The notes beneath the pieces were generated by a model. That model saw only the letters and a list, made by a program, of their open reading frames with translations. It searched no databases and had not been told where the DNA came from. Positions 1,224-40,245 of a DNA stretch of 40,245 nucleotides are shown piece by piece (the first letter of the stretch is position 1; each line of letters begins with the position of its first letter). The stretch lies in IMG/VR virus record IMGVR_UViG_3300045257_000135, positions 1 to 40,245 of that record; one strand, written 5' to 3'. The stretch comes from a virus. The position numbers and the translations under genes are program-made.

Positions 1224-1253
1224 GTTATATGGGACACTTGCACGATCTGCAAG
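1224..1253 (-). promoter_or_regulatory. operator-controlled early promoter (site O1)
   Basis: The palindrome CTTGCA-CGATC-TGCAAG spans 1237-1253. On the minus strand a -35 TTGCAG (1252-1247) lies inside it, then 17 bp, then -10 TATAAC (1229-1224), an almost ideal sigma-A spacing. A bound repressor would cover the -35 and spacer. The promoter drives the gene starting at 1211. Confidence 0.75.
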
Positions 1254-3724: not shown

Positions 3725-3767
3725 ACGATAGAGGACTCTTGCATAATGTGCAAGACAGGAGTAGCGT
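3725..3767. promoter_or_regulatory. divergent operator-promoter (site O2)
   Basis: The palindrome CTTGCA-TAATG-TGCAAG lies at 3738-3754. Leftward: -35 TTGCAC (3753-3748), 17 bp, -10 TATCGT (3730-3725), driving SSB. Rightward: -35 TTGCAT (3739-3744), 17 bp, -10 TAGCGT (3762-3767), 7 nt before the ATG at 3775. One operator can therefore silence both directions. The rightward -10 is weak. Confidence 0.65.
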
Positions 3768-8919: not shown

Positions 8920-9152
8920 GCGTACCAACCCCTCAACACGTAGGCCCGATCCGCGAGCGTCGAAATGACGTTCGCCTTGTGATCCAACTCCCGCTCAAGC
9001 TCCGCGATCCTCTGCTGAAGCTGCCTCACAAATCTTGCGTCTGACGCAAGAGTCGGGCGAGCCGCGGGGAACGGTCGGATCTGACAGCCCGTGGCCTCAG
9101 TGGGGCTGGAAATGGCCGCAGACGGGCAACCCTGCCCCTCGCACCGGATCAC
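8916..9152 (-). CDS. hypothetical coiled-coil protein carrying an internal operator
   Basis: A 78-residue protein with GTG start at 9152 overlapping the upstream stop. An N-terminal part with two Cys is followed by a coiled coil (FVRQLQQRIAELERELDHKA). Family unknown. Its coding sequence contains the perfect palindrome CTTGCGTCTGACGCAAG at 9034-9050, described separately. Confidence 0.5.
   Translation of the reverse strand: MIRCEGQGCPSAAISSPTEATGCQIRPFPAARPTLASDARFVRQLQQRIAELERELDHKANVISTLADRAYVLRGWYA
9034..9050. promoter_or_regulatory. intragenic operator-like palindrome (site O6)
   Basis: CTTGCG-TCTGA-CGCAAG has the same arm length and N5 spacing as the promoter operators, with G/C in place of A/T at the inner arm position. 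No -10 box lies 17 bp from either internal TTGCGT, so it appears not to be a promoter operator. It lies in mid-operon. Confidence 0.5.
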
Positions 9153-12464: not shown

Positions 12465-12511
12465 CTTGCGTTTCGTGCAAGACGATACGGGGTACTTGCA
12501 GAATATGCAAG
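12465..12511. promoter_or_regulatory. tandem operators O4/O3 and leftward early promoter
   Basis: O3 is CTTGCA-GAATA-TGCAAG (12495-12511); O4 is CTTGCG-TTTCG-TGCAAG (12465-12481), 30 bp apart centre to centre. Leftward -35 TTGCAT (12510-12505), 17 bp, -10 TATCGT (12487-12482) matches the SSB promoter in both boxes. The XRE-type gene begins on the other side, so its product is the obvious candidate to bind here. Confidence 0.75.
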
Positions 12512-12519
12512 AGAGCAGG

Positions 12520-12548
12520 TTGGACGAAAGTCGTCCGAACGCTAGTGT
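12520..12548 (+). promoter_or_regulatory. possible repressor promoter with small inverted repeat
   Basis: TTGGAC (12520-12525), 17 bp, TAGTGT (12543-12548), 13 nt before the ATG at 12562. Both boxes match consensus at only half their positions. The inverted repeat GGACGA-AAG-TCGTCC (12522-12536) overlaps the -35 and could be a second kind of operator. Confidence 0.3.
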
Positions 12549-12561
12549 TCAGGCCACGGAC

Positions 12562-12870
12562 ATGCCGCAACCCGAAACCCAATCGCTCATGGAACGCTTC
12601 CTAGTGGCCGTGATCGAAGACCGAATGCGAGTCGCAGGCATCACGCCCGCCGACCTCTCACGGCACCCCGAGTTCACGCGCAGCGAAGCGACCCTTAGCC
12701 GCGTCCTCGCCGGCCGAATCAAATCCCCCAACGGCGGATGGGATGACTTCGTGGGCGACGTAGGGGCCGCCCTGGACGAGTCACCGCTAGCCCTTTGGGC
12801 CGACGCACTAGAACTCTGGCGCGCCGACCCGAAGGGAATAACGCTTCGCCGACGGCTACGCGGCGACTGA
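12562..12870 (+). CDS. XRE-type helix-turn-helix protein, candidate immunity repressor
   Basis: A 102-residue protein opening MPQPETQSLMERFLVAVIED. Residues about 22-60 fit a lambda-type helix-turn-helix: RVAGITPADLSRHPEFTRSE, TLSRVLAGRIKSPNGGW, then DDFVGDVGAALDESPLALW. There is no peptidase-like C-terminal domain, so it is not a self-cleaving repressor. The gene faces the replication operon across the two operators O3 and O4, the position expected of an immunity repressor. The ATG has no strong ribosome site; an in-frame ATG at 12505 lies inside O3 and is less likely. That it binds all CTTGCA palindromes is inference. Confidence 0.65.
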   Translation: MPQPETQSLMERFLVAVIEDRMRVAGITPADLSRHPEFTRSEATLSRVLAGRIKSPNGGWDDFVGDVGAALDESPLALWADALELWRADPKGITLRRRLRGD

Positions 12871-13038: not shown

Positions 13039-13232
13039 TCCTCATACAGCCTCTCTCGCGTACGCCTAACACGCGCACTCCCGTGGTCGCGCTGACCCCG
13101 CGTCCCTGCTATTTCGCTGCCCCGCCGAGTACCCCTCAGCCTGGCAACCCACGGCACTAGAACAAGAACGAGTCCAAGATGAACTAGTTTCGACATGCCA
13201 AGTGTATCCGCATGCGCATACAATGCAACGCT
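13039..13232. other. control region between divergent small genes
   Basis: About 190 bp with no gene. It is less GC-rich than its surroundings near 13150-13230, as expected for promoters firing both ways. The palindrome at 13204-13221 is described separately; nothing else stands out. Confidence 0.4.
13204..13224 (+). promoter_or_regulatory. palindrome and -10 box ahead of the RHH gene
   Basis: GTATCCGCATGCGCATAC (13204-13221) is an 18-bp palindrome with one mismatched pair. TACAAT (13219-13224) overlaps its end and lies 8 nt before the ATG at 13233, so the transcript may be nearly leaderless. The -35 is weak. Autoregulation by the ribbon-helix-helix product is likely. Confidence 0.45.
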
Positions 13233-13490
13233 ATGAGCGACGAACCGCGCCGCGAGGTAGGGTTTCCGGGCGTGAGGGCCACGACCGTCAGGCTTGACGA
13301 TTCGCTACACGCGGCCGTGCGCGCCGAAGCAGAACGCCAAGGGACTAACCCCTCCGACTTCATTCGGCAAGCCGTAGCCTTCCGAGTCGGCTGGCTCGCA
13401 GCCCTACGCGCCAGCGGCGTAGACATTCCCGACGACGCCGCACTAGCGCAAGCCCTAGCCAAGCTCGCAGCCGAACCAGACGTGTCGTAG
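13233..13490 (+). CDS. ribbon-helix-helix (CopG/Arc-type) regulator
   Basis: An 85-residue protein. The strand ATTVRLDD is followed by LHAAVRAEAERQG, TNPSDFIRQAVAFRV, the arrangement of strand, helix A, turn and helix B of RHH dimers. A C-terminal helical extension (GVDIPDDAALAQALAKLAAE) follows. Such proteins bind palindromic DNA as dimers of dimers; one palindrome overlaps its own promoter. No toxin gene is next to it, so an antitoxin role is not supported. It could modulate the lysogeny-lysis decision along with the XRE protein. Confidence 0.75.
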   Translation: MSDEPRREVGFPGVRATTVRLDDSLHAAVRAEAERQGTNPSDFIRQAVAFRVGWLAALRASGVDIPDDAALAQALAKLAAEPDVS

Positions 13491-28358: not shown

Positions 28359-29392
28359 CAGGCGATGTCCCCGACGAGCACCCACACGTCCGTGGCGCGC
28401 TTGCGCAGCGCGGCCGAGGACCACTGGTTCGCGATCGTCCGAGAGGTCGTCCCCGCGGCCTCCAGGCGGTTCGGGATCGTGACCCCGGAGCCGTCCGTGA
28501 TCGTGACCGACCCGGCGCCGATGCGGCAGATTTCGATCACGGTGCCGACGGGGAACGCGACCGACGAGTTCGGCGGGATCGTCACCACGGTCGCCGAGGC
28601 GGAGTTCATCTCGATCGTCTTGCCCGCGTCGCCAAGGACGAGCGTGTAGCTGCCCGTCTGCGTGTTTGCGGTGATCGTCGTGTCCGCGAGCGTGCGGGCG
28701 GCGGCCTCGGTCGCGATGCCGCCCGCCGCCTCAAACGCCGAGGATGGCTGCGTCGCCGCCGATCCGAGCCCCAGGTTCGTTCGCGCCGTACCGGCGTTCG
28801 CGAGATCCGAGAGGTTCGCCGACTTCTGCGCGGCCTCCGAAGCTACCTCAGCCAGCGCGGCCTGTGCGTCGGTCGCCGCGATCGTCCCCACGGGGGTGAC
28901 CGTGACCGAACTCGCAGCCACACTTCCCCCCGAAGGGGGCGCTGCAAGGGTCCCGTCGTCCCGGACGAACTTCGTGCCATCCGGCGTGCCCGACGCGAGG
29001 TTCGCGATCGGCACGAGCGACAACCCATTCAGTGGCGCCACGCCATTGGCCGCACCCTTCGCCGTCGTCGCGATGGCGCCAATGTCGGCCGGCGAAAGAA
29101 CGTCGCTACCGCCAGTCGCGTGAGACGACTTATGAGCGGTTGGCGTCCGAGCATCCGAGAGGCGCGAATCGGCCGTCACCACAGCCGTGCCCGTGATCTT
29201 CGCCGGGGAAAGCGTGGTCGCGATCTTCGCGTCCGTAACGCTCGCGTCAGCCGGCGTGCGCGCATCGCTCAGACGAGCGTCCGCGGTAACGACTGCGGTA
29301 CCGGCGATCTTCGCCGGGTTGATGGCCGCACCGCTCGCAACCTTGATGTCGGTAACGGAACCGTCGGGCGGCTCGGGGAATGTGGAGGTCAT
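28358..29392 (-). CDS. repeat-containing fibre protein
   Basis: A 344-residue protein. Two near-identical repeats in the first 90 residues (PAKIAGTAVVTADARLSDAR and PAKITGTAVVTADSRLSDAR) precede TAHKSSHATGGSDVLSPADI, a motif common in phage tail-fibre shafts. A helical section (AALAEVASEAAQKSANLSDL) and a beta C-terminus with TNTQTGSYTLVLGDAG-like strands (TGSYTLVLGDAGKTIEMNSA) complete it; the last part is a typical trimeric fibre tip. It should be a receptor-binding or decoration fibre. Confidence 0.75.
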   Translation of the reverse strand: MTSTFPEPPDGSVTDIKVASGAAINPAKIAGTAVVTADARLSDARTPADASVTDAKIATTLSPAKITGTAVVTADSRLSDARTPTAHKSSHATGGSDVLSPADIGAIATTAKGAANGVAPLNGLSLVPIANLASGTPDGTKFVRDDGTLAAPPSGGSVAASSVTVTPVGTIAATDAQAALAEVASEAAQKSANLSDLANAGTARTNLGLGSAATQPSSAFEAAGGIATEAAARTLADTTITANTQTGSYTLVLGDAGKTIEMNSASATVVTIPPNSSVAFPVGTVIEICRIGAGSVTITDGSGVTIPNRLEAAGTTSRTIANQWSSAALRKRATDVWVLVGDIA

Positions 29393-30252
29393 CGGGACCG
29401 CCTCTCCGCGCGCCCGGCGGGCGCCTTAGCCTCGCCACGCACACGGGCAAGCTCCGCATCCACGCACGCAACCTGCTCCGGGGTGCCGGTCCGCACGTAG
29501 CCCTCACGCTCAACCACAAGGCCCTTGATGTACGCCTCACGCTGTTCCGTGGTCTGCATTTCAAGCCCCTCAATGTTCAGGTCGTCGCGCGTCGCGTAGT
29601 AGTCGCGGGATTCCTTCGCCCGCCACAAATCGCGCTGCCCGTTCCGATGCTCGAGCCGAACCGTGGTGAAGTCCTCGGCGGGCTCAAGGTTCTCTTTGCC
29701 CCAGAGGAAACGACCGTCCGGGGTGACGTACGTGTAATGGTTCCCGACCACGGAAAGCCCGCGGATGGCGCGGAACATGACCCGGATCGTCTGCGACTCC
29801 ACAAGGGGTGTGACGAACGGCCGCTCAGAGGGGTGGTAAAGGTCCCTGTGCTTCCACAAGGTGACTTCCCCTACGTCACGCCGCGCCTCGGCAACTCGCG
29901 CCCGCAGATCGCCCCCAGTGTCAGTAACCACCTCATCGCCGTCGATGACGAAGTACCAATCCTCGGAGGTCGTCGCGCATTCGCCGAGCCGGAACATGGT
30001 GGACCGCTTCTCGGTTTCGTTGCCGGCCCATCGCTTCTGCGGCTCGTGGATGGTGCATCCCATGTTCAGGGAGCGCGCCGTCTCGCGGATCGCTTCGGCC
30101 TGATCGGTTCCGGAGTGTGCCCGGCCACCGGGGTAGAGGAAGTACGCCCCGTCCACGGCAACGATGTGGTCACAGAACGGCTGCATGGACGCGACGGTTG
30201 CCGCGAGCCACCCGGGCTTTTCCTGATACCAACTCAGTAGGCCGCAGATCAT
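29389..30252 (-). CDS. GT-A-type glycosyltransferase
   Basis: A 287-residue protein. MICGLLSWYQEKPGWLAATV and DHIVAVDGAYFLYPG form the nucleotide-sugar-binding start of family 2-like enzymes, and WYFVIDGDEVV gives the metal-binding D104-G-D106. The rest includes RVMFRAIRGLSVVGNHYTYV, the acceptor side. It should transfer a sugar from a nucleotide donor. Lying between an acyltransferase and a fibre gene it probably decorates a virion protein or masks the host surface receptor; which one cannot be told. Confidence 0.8.
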   Translation of the reverse strand: MICGLLSWYQEKPGWLAATVASMQPFCDHIVAVDGAYFLYPGGRAHSGTDQAEAIRETARSLNMGCTIHEPQKRWAGNETEKRSTMFRLGECATTSEDWYFVIDGDEVVTDTGGDLRARVAEARRDVGEVTLWKHRDLYHPSERPFVTPLVESQTIRVMFRAIRGLSVVGNHYTYVTPDGRFLWGKENLEPAEDFTTVRLEHRNGQRDLWRAKESRDYYATRDDLNIEGLEMQTTEQREAYIKGLVVEREGYVRTGTPEQVACVDAELARVRGEAKAPAGRAERRSR

Positions 30253-34893: not shown

Positions 34894-36531
34894 CTACCAA
34901 AACGCCGCGCCCGGCTTCGGCGCCGGGGTGATAGACAGCGCGCGCGCCATCAGAAGGGCAACGCAAGCGTCGATCGGCGGCCCGGACTCCTCCGCTTTGC
35001 CGACACGGAACGCGCCAGGGCCAACGTCGATCGCCGAAGCCGCTTCGACATGAGCGCGGAGGATCGGGTCCCCGTCGTGCGCCCATGCGGCCTCGATGAT
35101 TTCGGTTCGGGCGTCGCCCGCGGCGGGGCACATGCGCTCCGGTGACTGCGGGAACTGCACCATCGCCAGCCCTTCGCCCGTGAGGGTTTCGGCTGCCTGA
35201 TCGAAGTACTTGGGGTCCCACCCGACGGCCATGAGCCGGTACCCGCTGTTGAGGTCGCGCAGGGCGTCCATGACGGGCGTGTACTCAATGGGTTGGTCGG
35301 TTCCACCGGAGCGCCAAATGAGGGCGCGTACGATCGGATTGAGGTCACCCCTTGGGAAGACAAGGCCGACGGCCGCGCAGTCCCGGTAGCGGGCCATATC
35401 GACCGCTGCGTACACCTCGTCGCCGAGTCCCCCCATGGCGGCGATGCACTCGCGGATTTCGTCGCGCGTGGCGCCTTCCCAGGTGCGATGTTCGACCACG
35501 GGTACGGTGTCGTCGTACATCTTCTGCCAGGACCCGCCGGGGATCCATGACCGGAAGGCGAGCGTCCAGACGTTGCATCGCCAGCGGAGGAAGTCCCATG
35601 TGGTGATGCCGGGCGCTTCGCGGGCGTCGCGGAGACTGTCGGGGGTGACGAAGCTCGCGGGGTTGGCGAGTTTGACCACCCTCATGTCGTCGGGGTCGTC
35701 TGCTGGCCCGAGTCCTTCGGTGCCGTCGCGGAGCGCCCATTGCAACATGACGTTGCGGCCGGTCGCCGTGGTCGCGATGGTGAGGCGGCCGTCCCCTTGC
35801 TCGGGGTTCCCTTCGCCGTTGATGACGAGGGCGTGTTGGATGGTGCCGCCCTTTTGCTCTACGGCTAGGAACTGTGCGCGTAGCTGTCCAAGCACACCGT
35901 TGATGTTGTGGCCGGCGGTGGAGATGACGGCGCAGATTCCGGACTCAAGGCCGATTTCGGGCCGCTTGCCCTTGAACACGGCGGACCGGAGCGCCACGTA
36001 AATGCTTGTGTTCTCGTGGGCGTGTAGCTCGTCAATGAGGGCGAGCGTCGGCGAGTAAGAGTGCTTCTTGCCCTTGCCGCGTGACTTGTCGGAGGCGAGG
36101 ACGCGAATCTTGCCGGTGCGCCGCCCCGTTTTGGGGTCGGGACGCAGGGTGATGACCCGCATGGATTCGGCGATGTTGACCATGCGCCGAATGGAGGGCT
36201 TCGACTCGCAGAAGTGCTGCGCGAATCGGAACATTTCGGTCGCCTGCTCGAGGTCCGCGGCCGCAATGAACACCTGCGGTGACGGGACGGTGAGGAGGTG
36301 GAAGACCGAGAGGCCCGCCATGATGGTCGTCTTGCCGTTGCCCTTGGGGAGCAACGTGAGGAGTTCGACTAGCCCGGTCCGGAAGATGGTCCGGAGGATG
36401 AGTTTGGCGTATCCCTCTAGGAGTACGGGGCCGCCTTCGGGTAGGTCGAACTGCTGAATGAACCAGACGCAGTCTTCGTAGCACCACGCGAGCTTGCCGC
36501 TACGTGTCCTCTTGGGGCGTGTCGCTTGCAT
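34894..36531 (-). CDS. terminase large subunit
   Basis: A 545-residue packaging motor. Walker A is LPKGNGKTT (61-69), an adenine-side motif follows, and Walker B is LALIDELHAH with D167-E168. The C-terminal nuclease domain starts near residue 375 (VYAAVDMARYRDCAAVGLVF) with Asp residues again at AVGWDPKYFDQAAE and GPPIDACVALLMARAL. It pumps and cuts concatemeric DNA. The start overlaps the end of the methyltransferase C-part by 32 nt. Confidence 0.95.
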   Translation of the reverse strand: MQATRPKRTRSGKLAWCYEDCVWFIQQFDLPEGGPVLLEGYAKLILRTIFRTGLVELLTLLPKGNGKTTIMAGLSVFHLLTVPSPQVFIAAADLEQATEMFRFAQHFCESKPSIRRMVNIAESMRVITLRPDPKTGRRTGKIRVLASDKSRGKGKKHSYSPTLALIDELHAHENTSIYVALRSAVFKGKRPEIGLESGICAVISTAGHNINGVLGQLRAQFLAVEQKGGTIQHALVINGEGNPEQGDGRLTIATTATGRNVMLQWALRDGTEGLGPADDPDDMRVVKLANPASFVTPDSLRDAREAPGITTWDFLRWRCNVWTLAFRSWIPGGSWQKMYDDTVPVVEHRTWEGATRDEIRECIAAMGGLGDEVYAAVDMARYRDCAAVGLVFPRGDLNPIVRALIWRSGGTDQPIEYTPVMDALRDLNSGYRLMAVGWDPKYFDQAAETLTGEGLAMVQFPQSPERMCPAAGDARTEIIEAAWAHDGDPILRAHVEAASAIDVGPGAFRVGKAEESGPPIDACVALLMARALSITPAPKPGAAFW

Positions 36532-36907
36532 CCGTGCCCCCTTGGAGGTGCTGAATCAGGCGGCGCCCGATCCATTCCGCTACCGGCTTGACCACTCCGT
36601 CACCACATGCGGCGTAGCGCGGCCCGTCGGGCGGGTGCTTGCCGTCGCGGGGTTCCTCGATGACGGTCCAGTCGTCGGGCCAGCCCATGAGGCGTTCGCA
36701 CTCCGTGGGCGTCAGTCGCCGCACTCCGTGCCCGATCCTCACCGCTGCGTAGCCCTGCCCGGGCTTGCCCCCGCCCTTTGTGAGCGACCCTGAGATAGGA
36801 GATTCCACGAGCTCACCCCTCTGGTTCTCCGCGAACATCTGGGGGGCTGACGATGAGGTGTCCGCCGGCTGCGCCTTCGGCGTCGATTCGGTATCCACGT
36901 TTCCCAC
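36500..36907 (-). pseudogene. cytosine-5 DNA methyltransferase, C-terminal part
   Basis: A 135-residue frame beginning at GTG 36907. It contains ENQRGELVESPISGSLTKGG and GYAAVRIGHGVRRLTPTECE, RLMGWPDDWTVIEEP and RYAACGDGVVKPVAEWIGRR, which are the end of the target domain and motifs IX and X of m5C methyltransferases. It is in the same frame as the segment ending at 36926, divided from it by one TGA. AAGGCG lies close before the GTG, so re-initiation is possible, making it a beta subunit, but loss of function is as likely. Confidence 0.7.
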
Positions 36908-36925
36908 CGCCTTGGAGGGTCGATA

Positions 36926-37264
36926 TCACGTCACGATGATGTGACCCGCCTGCGCCGAGTTGTCGTCTACCCCCCCCCGCTGTTTATCGAGGGTTCCGAC
37001 GATCCGGGGCTCTATGACGAAGTCTTCGCCCTCAGCGTCGATTCGCCCCCCTGGTGAGTGTGCGAGCGTTTCGAGCGCCATCCGCAACCGAACCGGCAAC
37101 ACCCGACCGCGCTTCGCTGCGCGGCGCAGGATGCCCGCCGCCGCCCGCGAACTCAAGAAGAATCTCGGGTGGGCATTCGCCTCCAAGATGTGCGACAACG
37201 AAGACTCGACGGCGGCGTTGGGGCACTCCGAAGTGTTGAGCGTCGAGAAGTCGCCAGACGGCAC
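36926..37264 (-). other. second open frame across the methyltransferase (middle segment)
   Basis: This frame is open from 37699 to 36926. Its last 40 codons (GEDFVIEPRIVGTLDKQRGG then VDDNSAQAGHIIVT) continue the methyltransferase beyond the stop of the N-terminal part, after a shift at the C6 run 37046-37051. Its earlier part (TLNTSECPNAAVESSLSHIL, FFLSSRAAAGILRRAAKRG) lies in a different frame on the very bases that code methyltransferase motif VIII. A GTG at 37264 is the best start if it is translated alone. Confidence 0.4.
36970..36978. repeat. C9 homopolymer inside the methyltransferase
   Basis: Nine C on the plus strand (G9 in the coding direction), read as CGG GGG GGG GTA. Such a run can slip in replication and change the reading frame, or be miscounted in sequencing. 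Confidence 0.85.
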
Positions 37265-37730
37265 CGCCCCACGGACCGGTGACCACACCTGCGCTTGCCC
37301 ACCCCCCGGCGGGAACATCGACGGTTGCGCCCACGAAGGCACCCAAGATGAGTGCGAAGTCCAAGCCTTTGTTGCTGGATAGAGCGCCTGCGACGTTCTC
37401 CCATATGCACCATTCGATGCTTCGTGCATGGCGCACCCGTATGTAGTCGAAGAACAGGCCCGAGCGTGCCCCGTCGAGCCCCGCGCGTTTGCCGGCGTGA
37501 CTGAGGTCTTGGCAGGGTGTCCCGCCAATAAGCACGTCAGCTTCAGGAAGGTCGGCAGGGTCAAGCGTCGTGAGGTCGGGGAAGATCGGAACACCGGGCC
37601 AGTGATGCGCGAGCACCTTCCGTCGCCACGGGTCCGCCTCGCAGAACGCGACGGTTTGGAAGCCCGCTGCGTCCATGCCTTGGTCAAACCCGCCAACACC
37701 CGAGCAGACCGAGATAACCCTTGGCTTCAC
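37032..37730 (-). pseudogene. cytosine-5 DNA methyltransferase, N-terminal part
   Basis: A 232-residue frame with motif I SVCSGVGGFDQGM (7-19), motif IV GGTPCQDLS with the catalytic Cys73, motif VI WENV (110-113) and motif VIII FGVPQRRRRVFVV (167-179). It ends prematurely at 37032 in an Arg-rich tail. Together with the segments at 36926 and 36500 it makes about 410 codons, the normal length of such enzymes, so the gene is interrupted by one frameshift and one stop. A split enzyme of the M.AquI kind, where motifs I-VIII and IX-X lie on two chains, is the alternative. GTG at 37730 follows GGAGGG. Confidence 0.75.
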
Positions 37731-37750
37731 GCGCCCTCCAACTTTCTTTG

Positions 37751-37796
37751 TGTCTAGCGCTTGACAGGTGCGCGGAGGGTGTCTATAACTAGACAC
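37751..37796 (+). promoter_or_regulatory. consensus promoter with TGTCTA operators, leaderless start
   Basis: -35 TTGACA (37761-37766), 17 bp, -10 TATAAC (37784-37789), then 7 nt to the ATG at 37797: the best promoter in the window, giving a leaderless mRNA. GTGTCTA-TAAC-TAGACAC (37779-37796) is a perfect palindrome over the -10; TGTC at 37751 with GACA at 37763 forms a second, weaker site over the -35. Confidence 0.85.
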
Positions 37797-37979
37797 ATGG
37801 ACGCCACCGCAACTCCCGCCCGCCGCTACTACGACAACATTGCAGCGCTGCGCAAGGGCAAGATCACGCCCGATGAGTACCGCGCCGCAAACCGCGCTAT
37901 GCGCGACGAGTTCGGCGAGGACGGATACGAAGCCGCGAAGCTCAAGGCCATCTGCTTTGACATCAACGCCAACGGTTAG
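37797..37979 (+). CDS. small hypothetical protein, leaderless
   Basis: A 60-residue protein: MDATATPARRYYDNIAALRK, then GKITPDEYRAANRAMRDEFG. It is helical and charged, ending DINANG. It begins at the transcription start and its TAG is followed at once by the ATG of the helix-turn-helix gene, so both come from one short transcript. Not recognised; the gene pair lies opposite to the late genes and is likely expressed from the prophage. Confidence 0.65.
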   Translation: MDATATPARRYYDNIAALRKGKITPDEYRAANRAMRDEFGEDGYEAAKLKAICFDINANG

Positions 37980-38171
37980 ATGGCGGACATACGGGCCGAA
38001 CTCGCCGATGCGGCGCGTCGTAAGGTAGACGCCGAGTCCGCACGCGCCGAGGCCATTGCGGACATCACGCGCCTTTTGAGGTCACGTCGCAGCACGGATA
38101 TTCCCGTTGCCGAACTCGCGCGCCTCTCGGGCGTGACGCGACAGACGATCTACACGCTCAGAAGCAACTAG
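37980..38171 (+). CDS. small helix-turn-helix regulator
   Basis: A 63-residue protein. The first half is a charged helix (IRAELADAARRKVDAESARA); the second is a helix-turn-helix, DIPVAELARLSGVTRQTIYT then LRSN, of the resolvase/Cro type. It probably binds the TGTCTA palindromes of its own promoter. Its end overlaps the small terminase end by 4 nt. It may be a second control switch separate from the CTTGCA system. Confidence 0.7.
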   Translation: MADIRAELADAARRKVDAESARAEAIADITRLLRSRRSTDIPVAELARLSGVTRQTIYTLRSN

Positions 38172-38554: not shown

Positions 38555-38836
38555 CTCGCATCGCCTCCACGGGCCTGCTAGACCCCTCTGCGGGCCTGTC
38601 TGTGTGTGGCTTTGGGCAGGCGAATACCCGACAGCACCCGAACGAGGTGCGGCCAGGGGAAACCCTAAACCCTGTCGCCATAAAGGTATTTCCAACACGC
38701 AACCGGTGGGTTGCGCTCAAAAGTGAAGCGTTTTCGTGCAGACTTGGCGGGTGAACTCACCACCCTTGTGTGATGTCTGATCCCCCCCCCGTCACACTTC
38801 TCGGGGTGGTCGGGGTGTGTCATCGGTCACGTCTGT
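38555..38836. other. long control region before the late genes
   Basis: About 280 bp without a supported gene. It holds the hairpin CGCAACC-GGTG-GGTTGCG (38698-38715), the AT-richer segment CCATAAAGGTATTTCC (near 38679), a C9 run at 38782-38790 and GTGTGA/TCACAC inverted bits around it. It is the natural place for late promoters (leftward) and packaging site; no exact promoter could be assigned. Confidence 0.5.
38782..38790. repeat. C9 homopolymer in the late control region
   Basis: Nine consecutive C between the divergent terminase and protease genes, the second such run in the window. Its length may vary between copies and alter promoter spacing, or be a sequencing uncertainty. Confidence 0.8.
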
Positions 38837-38866
38837 GTTGCGTTTCGTGCAAGGCGTGCGTACGGT
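38837..38866 (+). promoter_or_regulatory. operator-controlled leaderless promoter of the protease (site O5)
   Basis: GTTGCG-TTTCG-TGCAAG (38837-38853) is a two-mismatch form of the phage operator and shares 16 bases, TTGCGTTTCGTGCAAG, with O4. -35 TTGCGT (38838-38843), 17 bp, -10 TACGGT (38861-38866), then 7 nt to ATG 38874. Confidence 0.65.
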
Positions 38867-38873
38867 GGTGCCC

Positions 38874-39362
38874 ATGTTGAGGGTCGCTACCGTGGTGGTG
38901 TGTCTGACGGTGTGTGTCGCGTCGCCGGCTGAGGCTGCGCCTTCACATTCGTCGTGGTTTGATCGTGCGGTGGCGGTGGCGGACGCGCATTGGCCGTTGT
39001 CGCCTTGCCATGGTCGCGTGAGCGTGGTGTCTGCTACGGATGAGCAGATCGTGGCGTGGACGGGCGAGGCGTCAGCGGGTGCGGGTGCGTCCGTGGATGG
39101 GTCGTGCCGTGTGTTTGTGGCGTGGGACTTGTGGTCTGCTCGTCCGGTGCGTCAGCGTTGCCGCTTGCTTGAGCATGAGTTCGGCCACCTTGCGGGTGTT
39201 GACCATTCACTGAACCCGGCGTCGGTGATGTTCCCTGTGATCCTTGATCTTGGGCGGGGCAGTACGGATTGTGTGCGTGCGTTCCCTGAGCGCAGGGCGT
39301 GGCCGATGTTCGACACGTTGCCGGACTGGCGTGCGCTCGCGCTGGACAGGCTCACGCTTTAG
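38874..39362 (+). CDS. secreted metzincin-type metalloprotease
   Basis: A 162-residue protein. Residues 1-22 are a signal peptide (LRVATVVVCLTVCVASPAEA, cut likely after AEA). The zinc site is HEFGHLAGVDH with H101, E102, H105 and H111, and SVMFP with Met119 is the Met-turn: the full metzincin signature, closest in style to matrixins and small archaemetzincin-like forms. Four cysteines in the mature part (45, 78, 96, and near 130) could form two disulphides. It has no prodomain. Codon choice, with many GTG, TGT and GCG codons, differs from its neighbours, suggesting separate origin. It would be exported by the host cell; target unknown. Confidence 0.8.
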   Translation: MLRVATVVVCLTVCVASPAEAAPSHSSWFDRAVAVADAHWPLSPCHGRVSVVSATDEQIVAWTGEASAGAGASVDGSCRVFVAWDLWSARPVRQRCRLLEHEFGHLAGVDHSLNPASVMFPVILDLGRGSTDCVRAFPERRAWPMFDTLPDWRALALDRLTL

Positions 39363-39796: not shown

Positions 39797-40245
39797 GCCG
39801 CATCCATCACGGCCGGCGCCAGCATCACACGCAAACGATCATGCCCAGCCTTACGAAGCTGCGACACACGCGACTCCGACACATCAAGCACGCTCCCAAT
39901 ATGGGCCAACGTCTCGCCCTCAATGTCGTGCTGCCACACCGAATAGAACTCGCGCGGCGGAAGGTTGATGACCGTGGCCTGGATCGCGTCCGCGTCGCAA
40001 AGCGCTGCGTACTCGTCCGCCGGGTCAGCCGCGCACTCCGCGTACTTCTGCATGTCAAGCCAACCGGGCATGCCGGGGTCTTCCATCAACCCAGCCTGCA
40101 CCTTGCGGCGCTCAGATCGGGTGAGGTGATCCTCCGACCGGAGGTAGTCGCGAATCTCGCCCTTGATACGCCACCAAGCGTAGGAGCCGAAGGCGCCACC
40201 ACGGGCAGGGTCGAAGTCGTGTGCGGCCTTCGTCAGCCCGAGCAG
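39793..40245 (-). CDS. phage sigma-70 family factor, C-terminal part (split by contig junction)
   Basis: The continuation of the sigma factor from position 1-237; bases 40117-40245 repeat 1-129. After region 2 and LTRSERRKVQAG (a short remnant of region 3), a 40-residue linker leads to region 4: NLPPREFYSVWQHDIEGETL, then AHIGSVLDVSESRVSQLRKA, GHDRLRVML, with the -35-binding helix-turn-helix in SESRVSQLR. At 186 residues it is shorter than FliA (about 240) because region 3 is almost absent. It retains both core-binding and promoter-binding parts, so it should be active. The next genes in its direction are two small genes and, after the protease, the small terminase. Confidence 0.85.
   Translation of the reverse strand: MLGLTKAAHDFDPARGGAFGSYAWWRIKGEIRDYLRSEDHLTRSERRKVQAGLMEDPGMPGWLDMQKYAECAADPADEYAALCDADAIQATVINLPPREFYSVWQHDIEGETLAHIGSVLDVSESRVSQLRKAGHDRLRVMLAPAVMDAA
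40117..40245. repeat. terminal direct repeat, right copy
   Basis: Second copy of the 129-bp end overlap, identical to bases 1-129 save for C at 40243. It closes the circle and restores the sigma factor reading frame. Confidence 0.95.

Follow-up and report, generated by a model that had tools for sequence, protein, structure and literature searches.

The described system that most resembles the one reported here is the mtz-tim locus of Listeria monocytogenes, which encodes the secreted, prophage-derived metzincin Mtz (Boichis et al. 2021; PMC8235301). In prophages mtz is an accessory gene, often found downstream of the holin-lysin genes, and its control is by a CI/Cro-like phage switch (PMC8235301). 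Together with its TIMP-like partner, Tim, Mtz enhances phage lysis and raises virion release by about 5-fold; the active site is needed for this effect (PMC8235301).

How does a second phage-borne metzincin gene compare? We examined one in an IMG/VR virus record, the whole 40,245 bp of which were analysed and are referred to below as the window.

The phage and its genome

No exact repeat was found at the record ends. A 129-bp direct repeat with one mismatch is nevertheless present at both (1-129 and 40117-40245), for which reason the record is probably a complete genome, circularly closed or permuted. A sigma-factor gene (FliA/WhiG-like) spans the ends. The window encodes a serine integrase, small and large terminase, portal, major capsid and tape measure proteins, as well as RecT-like, exonuclease and SSB proteins; by this gene content the phage is a temperate siphovirus. 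Mycobacteriophage capsids share 35-39% identity with its capsid protein, and the phages of its group presumably have actinobacterial hosts. A terminase-based genome scan for a prophage found none.

The late genes, from terminase to tape measure, all lie on the (-) strand. Between the small and large terminase genes a cytosine-C5 DNA methyltransferase is encoded in two pieces (36500-37796, -), and since these lie in different frames the gene may be split or broken. Two small (+) genes stand amid the (-) late genes at 37761-38171, adjoining the small terminase gene; the second encodes an HTH protein (phrog_686, HTH_11-like). A glycosyltransferase-like gene (29389-30252, -; phrog_7009) lies between the head and tail genes and has a 43% relative in L004, one of the genomes related through TerL.

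The metzincin gene and its product

A sequence-only reading of this DNA had proposed a secreted metzincin of 162 residues, with a signal peptide, the full HExxHxxGxxH site and a Met-turn, on the strand opposite to the late genes. The open reading frame, motif counts and hydropathy agree with that description, and the strands are indeed opposed. The features are:

38874-39362 (+): metzincin coding sequence, 162 residues from ATG (open reading frame; family profile, 67 bits; matrixin fold)
38874-38936 (+): predicted signal peptide, residues 1-21, predicted cut AEA/AP (inspection and hydropathy scan; junction A-x-A/P common to family members)
39174-39206 (+): zinc-binding site HEFGHLAGVDH, residues 101-111 (motif counts; invariant in the family alignment)
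39222-39233 (+): Met-turn S-V-M-F, residues 117-120 (motif scan; family alignment)

The frame opens at GTG 38817 and is closed by a stop at 39362, and the 162-residue form begins at ATG 38874. Position 38837, where the region described in the earlier reading begins, is the start of the promoter region and not of the protein. The GTG at 38817 could be an alternative in-frame start; the operator described below would then fall within the coding region.

The signal peptide (MLRVATVVVCLTVCVASPAEA, cut before AP) was called by inspection and hydropathy rather than by a trained predictor. It has a short N-region, a hydrophobic core (mean hydropathy 2.87 over 12 residues) and an A-E-A/A-P junction. 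When back-translated, HExxHxxGxxH occurs once in the window against 0.01 expected (1 in 100 shuffles), and the fuller motif with Pro and Met-turn once against 0.00 expected. The third zinc histidine, His111, is followed directly by Ser112, which is nearly invariant across the family, as Met119 of the Met-turn (S117-V-M119-F) is wholly so. A prodomain with a cysteine switch, of the vertebrate MMP type, is absent; the mature chain opens with the catalytic domain.

To which known proteases is this protein related? Fold prediction and a search among metzincin families had been suggested as checks. An AlphaFold model built from 31 family sequences (pLDDT 74.5) aligns over residues 24-132 with matrixin catalytic domains at Z 8-9.3 (101 aligned residues, rmsd 2.9), the best structural alignment being with MMP-11 (Z 9.3 over 101 residues); the best Foldseek match of the metzincin model has E 0.011. 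The match to Pfam PF00413 (M10) has E 7.6e-5, and at 23.1 bits it does not reach the cutoff of 24; the ATG form, at 23.3 bits, is also under 24. A profile of the viral family described below picks up MMPs, matrilysin among them, at E 5e-10, the matched part being the active site. Full-length profile matches to snapalysin, M7, are weak (NCBIfam E 2.3e-4; Pfam M7 E 0.0035) and far under the family cutoffs. A single-sequence search found no relatives in isolate phages, IMG/VR or plasmids, and PHROGs gave no match. Predicted signal peptide, zinc site, Met-turn and fold together support the assignment as a secreted metzincin.

A family of small viral metzincins

We searched viral contigs with a degenerate DNA pattern for HExGHxxGxxHxxxPxxxM[YF], which matched 94 viral DNA stretches; a narrower HEFGH scan gave no matches. 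About 30 of the 94 encode small proteins, mostly with a signal peptide, with W..P..C and with cysteines at shared positions: in the middle strand, before the zinc helix and after the Met-turn. Their signature is HExGHLxGxxHSxDPxSVMYP followed by a Cys after the Met-turn (L160, L146, L165, L106 and others, all IMG/VR). Members were initially chosen by eye from the motif scan, and the family boundaries are soft.

Does the target belong to this family? A profile of 23 members from which it had been left out gives it 67 bits; most unrelated metzincins fall at 26-45 and the highest borderline ones at 54-60. With the half upstream of the motif alone, the target has E 0.019 and ranks immediately after the true members. 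Its Cys45, Cys78 and Cys96 are conserved in the family alignment, over which it is nonetheless divergent from the other members (19-36% identity). In the tree it pairs with L165 (95/85) within a clade that includes L106, L169, L136 and L129, all on long branches.

The only match of family members among the isolate phages in the collection was an Acinetobacter matrixin, and this through the active site. In cellular genomes the family is rarely met: two copies occur in one of the actinobacterial genomes sampled and there are few others, a genome scan with the family alignment returning mostly matrixins alike solely in the active site. As far as these searches indicate, the family of small secreted viral metzincins is uncatalogued. 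Three further loci (L090, L094, L142) encode short metzincins of 106-108 residues with HEYGHL/HEFGHL and HSxNPxSxMYPV and no obvious signal peptide; the L090 gene lies 3' of tail genes and 5' of a gene for a small two-helix membrane protein.

The operator and its regulon

What controls the gene? A leaderless promoter containing an operator-like site had been read upstream of it, and palindrome counts with the spacing of the -10 boxes substantiate this. The relevant features are:

1238-1252 (-): operator, imperfect -10 TATAAC at 17 bp (read by eye)
3739-3753 (-): operator for ssb, -35 TTGCAC, -10 TATCGT at 17 bp
9035-9049: perfect palindrome TTGCGTCTGACGCAA, no -10 at 17 bp
12466-12480 (+): operator, 15-mer identical to the 38838 site, covering the point where the leftward early transcript is expected to begin (palindrome count)
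12496-12510 (-): operator, first hexamer the -35 (12510-12505) of the leftward early promoter; -10 TATCGT at 12487-12482
12505-12870 (+): candidate repressor gene, diverging from the early operon; small, predicted helical (position only)
38838-38852 (+): operator TTGCGTTTCGTGCAA, first hexamer the -35 box (palindrome count; spacing statistics)
38861-38866 (+): -10 box TACGGT, 17 bp past the -35 and 7 bp ahead of the ATG (spacing statistics)

The palindrome TTGC-N7-GCAA occurs six times in the window against 0.41 expected, a count never reached in 100 shuffles. In four of the 12 orientations of these six sites, TANNNT lies exactly 17 bp past the first hexamer, and at spacings of 10-16 or 18-25 it is never found (background about 0.001 per position). 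The metzincin promoter reads TTGCGT-17-TACGGT-7-ATG, with TTGCGTTTCGTGCAA over the -35; that of the early operon reads TTGCAT-17-TATCGT. At the ssb operator a rightward TAGCGT also lies at 17 bp, the fourth matching orientation. The sites at 12466 and 12496 are 30 bp apart, directly upstream of the leftward early operon, and that at 9035-9049 is possibly stoperator-like or due to chance. A generic sigma-70 scan found nothing at the metzincin promoter, which does not reach its consensus threshold.

Since the -10 falls exactly 17 bp on, the palindrome appears to double as the -35 box in the metzincin, early operon and ssb promoters. The predicted metzincin promoter is thus leaderless, with a phage operator as its -35 box, an arrangement from which we infer steric repression by the phage repressor. 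For the candidate repressor (12505-12870) neither a family nor a PDB or viral relative was found, and its model is of low confidence. Downstream of it a ribbon-helix-helix protein is encoded (13212-13490, +; PF01402, E 4e-7), and this is an alternative candidate for the operator-binding protein.

The gene had been described as a moron under a phage operator. Both the operator and the accessory status (below) stand; the operator, however, ties the gene to early lytic promoters. Because the ssb and leftward early operon promoters have the same operator, the metzincin gene looks like part of the phage lytic regulon and not like a moron expressed in the lysogen, and expression would be expected in lytic growth or after induction. 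A lysogeny-expressed moron had been the first idea, and was demoted after the operator analysis.

Accessory status and codon use

The metzincin gene is an accessory, moron-type gene, as had been proposed. Four TerL relatives (L002, L003, L004 and L008) carry no metzincin within the DNA available. L101, the sole family locus that shares clear structural genes with the window, has tail genes in common with the target phage (the two tape measure proteins are about 50% identical over 308 residues); its family member is located elsewhere, with an HNH endonuclease as neighbour and in an orientation opposed to that of the tail genes.

Codon use had been called unlike that of the other genes. It is deviant, and only moderately so: fifth most deviant among 48 genes, z 2.8. 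Third codon positions in the metzincin gene are G 0.52, T 0.27, C 0.19 and A 0.02, against C 0.41, G 0.39 and T 0.12 overall.

Neighbourhoods of the relatives

Where do the relatives lie? Three members of the target's clade (L165, L169 and L106) have the co-directional order metzincin, small membrane protein, NlpC/P60 or CHAP hydrolase, so that the family's nearest members sit at the head of lysis cassettes. In L165 there is one extra small gene between, and the NlpC/P60 score is just below the cutoff. An apparent transglycosylase and an apparent amidase, recognised by eye, lie nearby in L129 and L136; searches of the PDB gave no confirmation that these proteins are endolysins. Most other members have no recognised lysis genes alongside, and most of their neighbours match no family in PHROGs or Pfam. 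At several of these relatives missing neighbours say little, because the loci are short. In the target phage the gene stands alone, away from the lysis genes.

Directly upstream of the L106 metzincin is a gene for a membrane-anchored collagen-repeat protein (L106:3085-3795, -; PF01391, E 3e-15). It is conceivable that the two are an enzyme-substrate or anchor pair.

A proposed role

What might the protease do? The sequence-only reading had offered action on the host surface, other cells, phage receptors or released virion components. We favour envelope weakening and virion release, to which the genes around the nearest relatives and the precedent in Listeria point. The protein family, the fold class, the operator-promoter regulon, the accessory status and the lysis-gene neighbours of the closest relatives were all computed here, and on them the following scheme may be built. 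The metzincin would be a single-domain, matrixin-like enzyme made without a prodomain and exported by its signal peptide. In the lysogen a phage repressor would silence it through the operator at the -35; at the start of lytic growth it would be derepressed along with ssb and the recombination and replication operon. Once exported from a host not yet lysed, the enzyme would cleave cell-surface or wall proteins, and the envelope so weakened would aid the action of endolysin and the release of virions. We give this reading, an exported accessory lysis or release protease of the lytic programme, a probability of about 0.5. Against it, the gene does not adjoin lysis genes here, and to judge from its operator, expression should be early and not late; a TIMP-like partner lipoprotein is not to be seen, the branches of the tree are long and most family members lie away from recognised lysis genes.

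An alternative is a protease that modifies the surface or excludes other phages. Expressed early and exported, it might trim host surface proteins such as phage receptors or the S-layer, and so block the adsorption of further phages or prevent released virions from binding to debris. A signal peptide and a promoter of the early regulon would suit an enzyme at work on the surface ahead of lysis, and the gene is solitary and distant from the lysis genes. The nearest relatives, however, have holin-like and peptidoglycan hydrolase genes linked to them, and we hold this reading to be unlikely. Somewhat less likely again is lysogenic conversion, in which the lysogen would make the protease and the host would gain an activity outside the cell, for example in scavenging nutrients or in antagonism. 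Among bacteria, secreted matrixins are common, and the gene has its own promoter, deviant codon use and an orientation opposite to the late genes; yet the operator and spacing common to the early operon and ssb promoters predict that the gene is silent in the lysogen, except if the operator is bound by an activator. Might the gene have no function at all, having been recently acquired or being in decay, and so be unexpressed or inactive? Its sequence and composition are divergent and no close homolog was found, but the catalytic residues, the four cysteines, the signal peptide and the promoter-operator are all intact, and we regard this as very improbable.

Returning to the lysis and release protease, a stronger form of the proposal is more tentative: that in phages of this group the metzincin is a previously unrecognised lysis factor, acting on the protein layer of the envelope with holin and endolysin, and in the target phage encoded outside the lysis cassette under the early-gene repressor and softening the envelope from the start of the lytic cycle. 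Accounts of phage lysis deal mainly with the membrane, peptidoglycan and lipids as targets, to which an exported protease under repressor control would add a protein target.

Comparison with known systems

The target resembles the catalytic domains of matrixins and MMPs (PF00413, MEROPS M10) in its zinc site with the following Ser, in the Met-turn and in fold. It differs from them in having neither prodomain nor cysteine switch, in its shorter N-terminal half and in falling below the PF00413 cutoff, and the sequence match is limited to the active site. Snapalysin (M7), the small neutral protease of Streptomyces, is likewise a small secreted actinobacterial metzincin. Its third zinc ligand is Asp, unlike His111 of the target.

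The likeness to Listeria Mtz is in described features: both are metzincins of phage origin with HExxHxxGxxH/D and a Met-turn, Mtz being secreted and the target predicted to be so. The target differs in lacking a visible adjacent TIMP-like lipoprotein; no ORF for such a partner with an export signal adjoins the gene, and a scan gave no lipoprotein candidate. Its operator, moreover, lies within its own leaderless promoter and is common to ssb and the early operon. As to the CI/Cro-like control of mtz, the metzincin operator here is also present at the early promoter, while the candidate repressor has no family match. The analysis yields a defined gene family and a predicted regulon, and, if the proposed role is true, the target would parallel Listeria Mtz in an unrelated group of phages.
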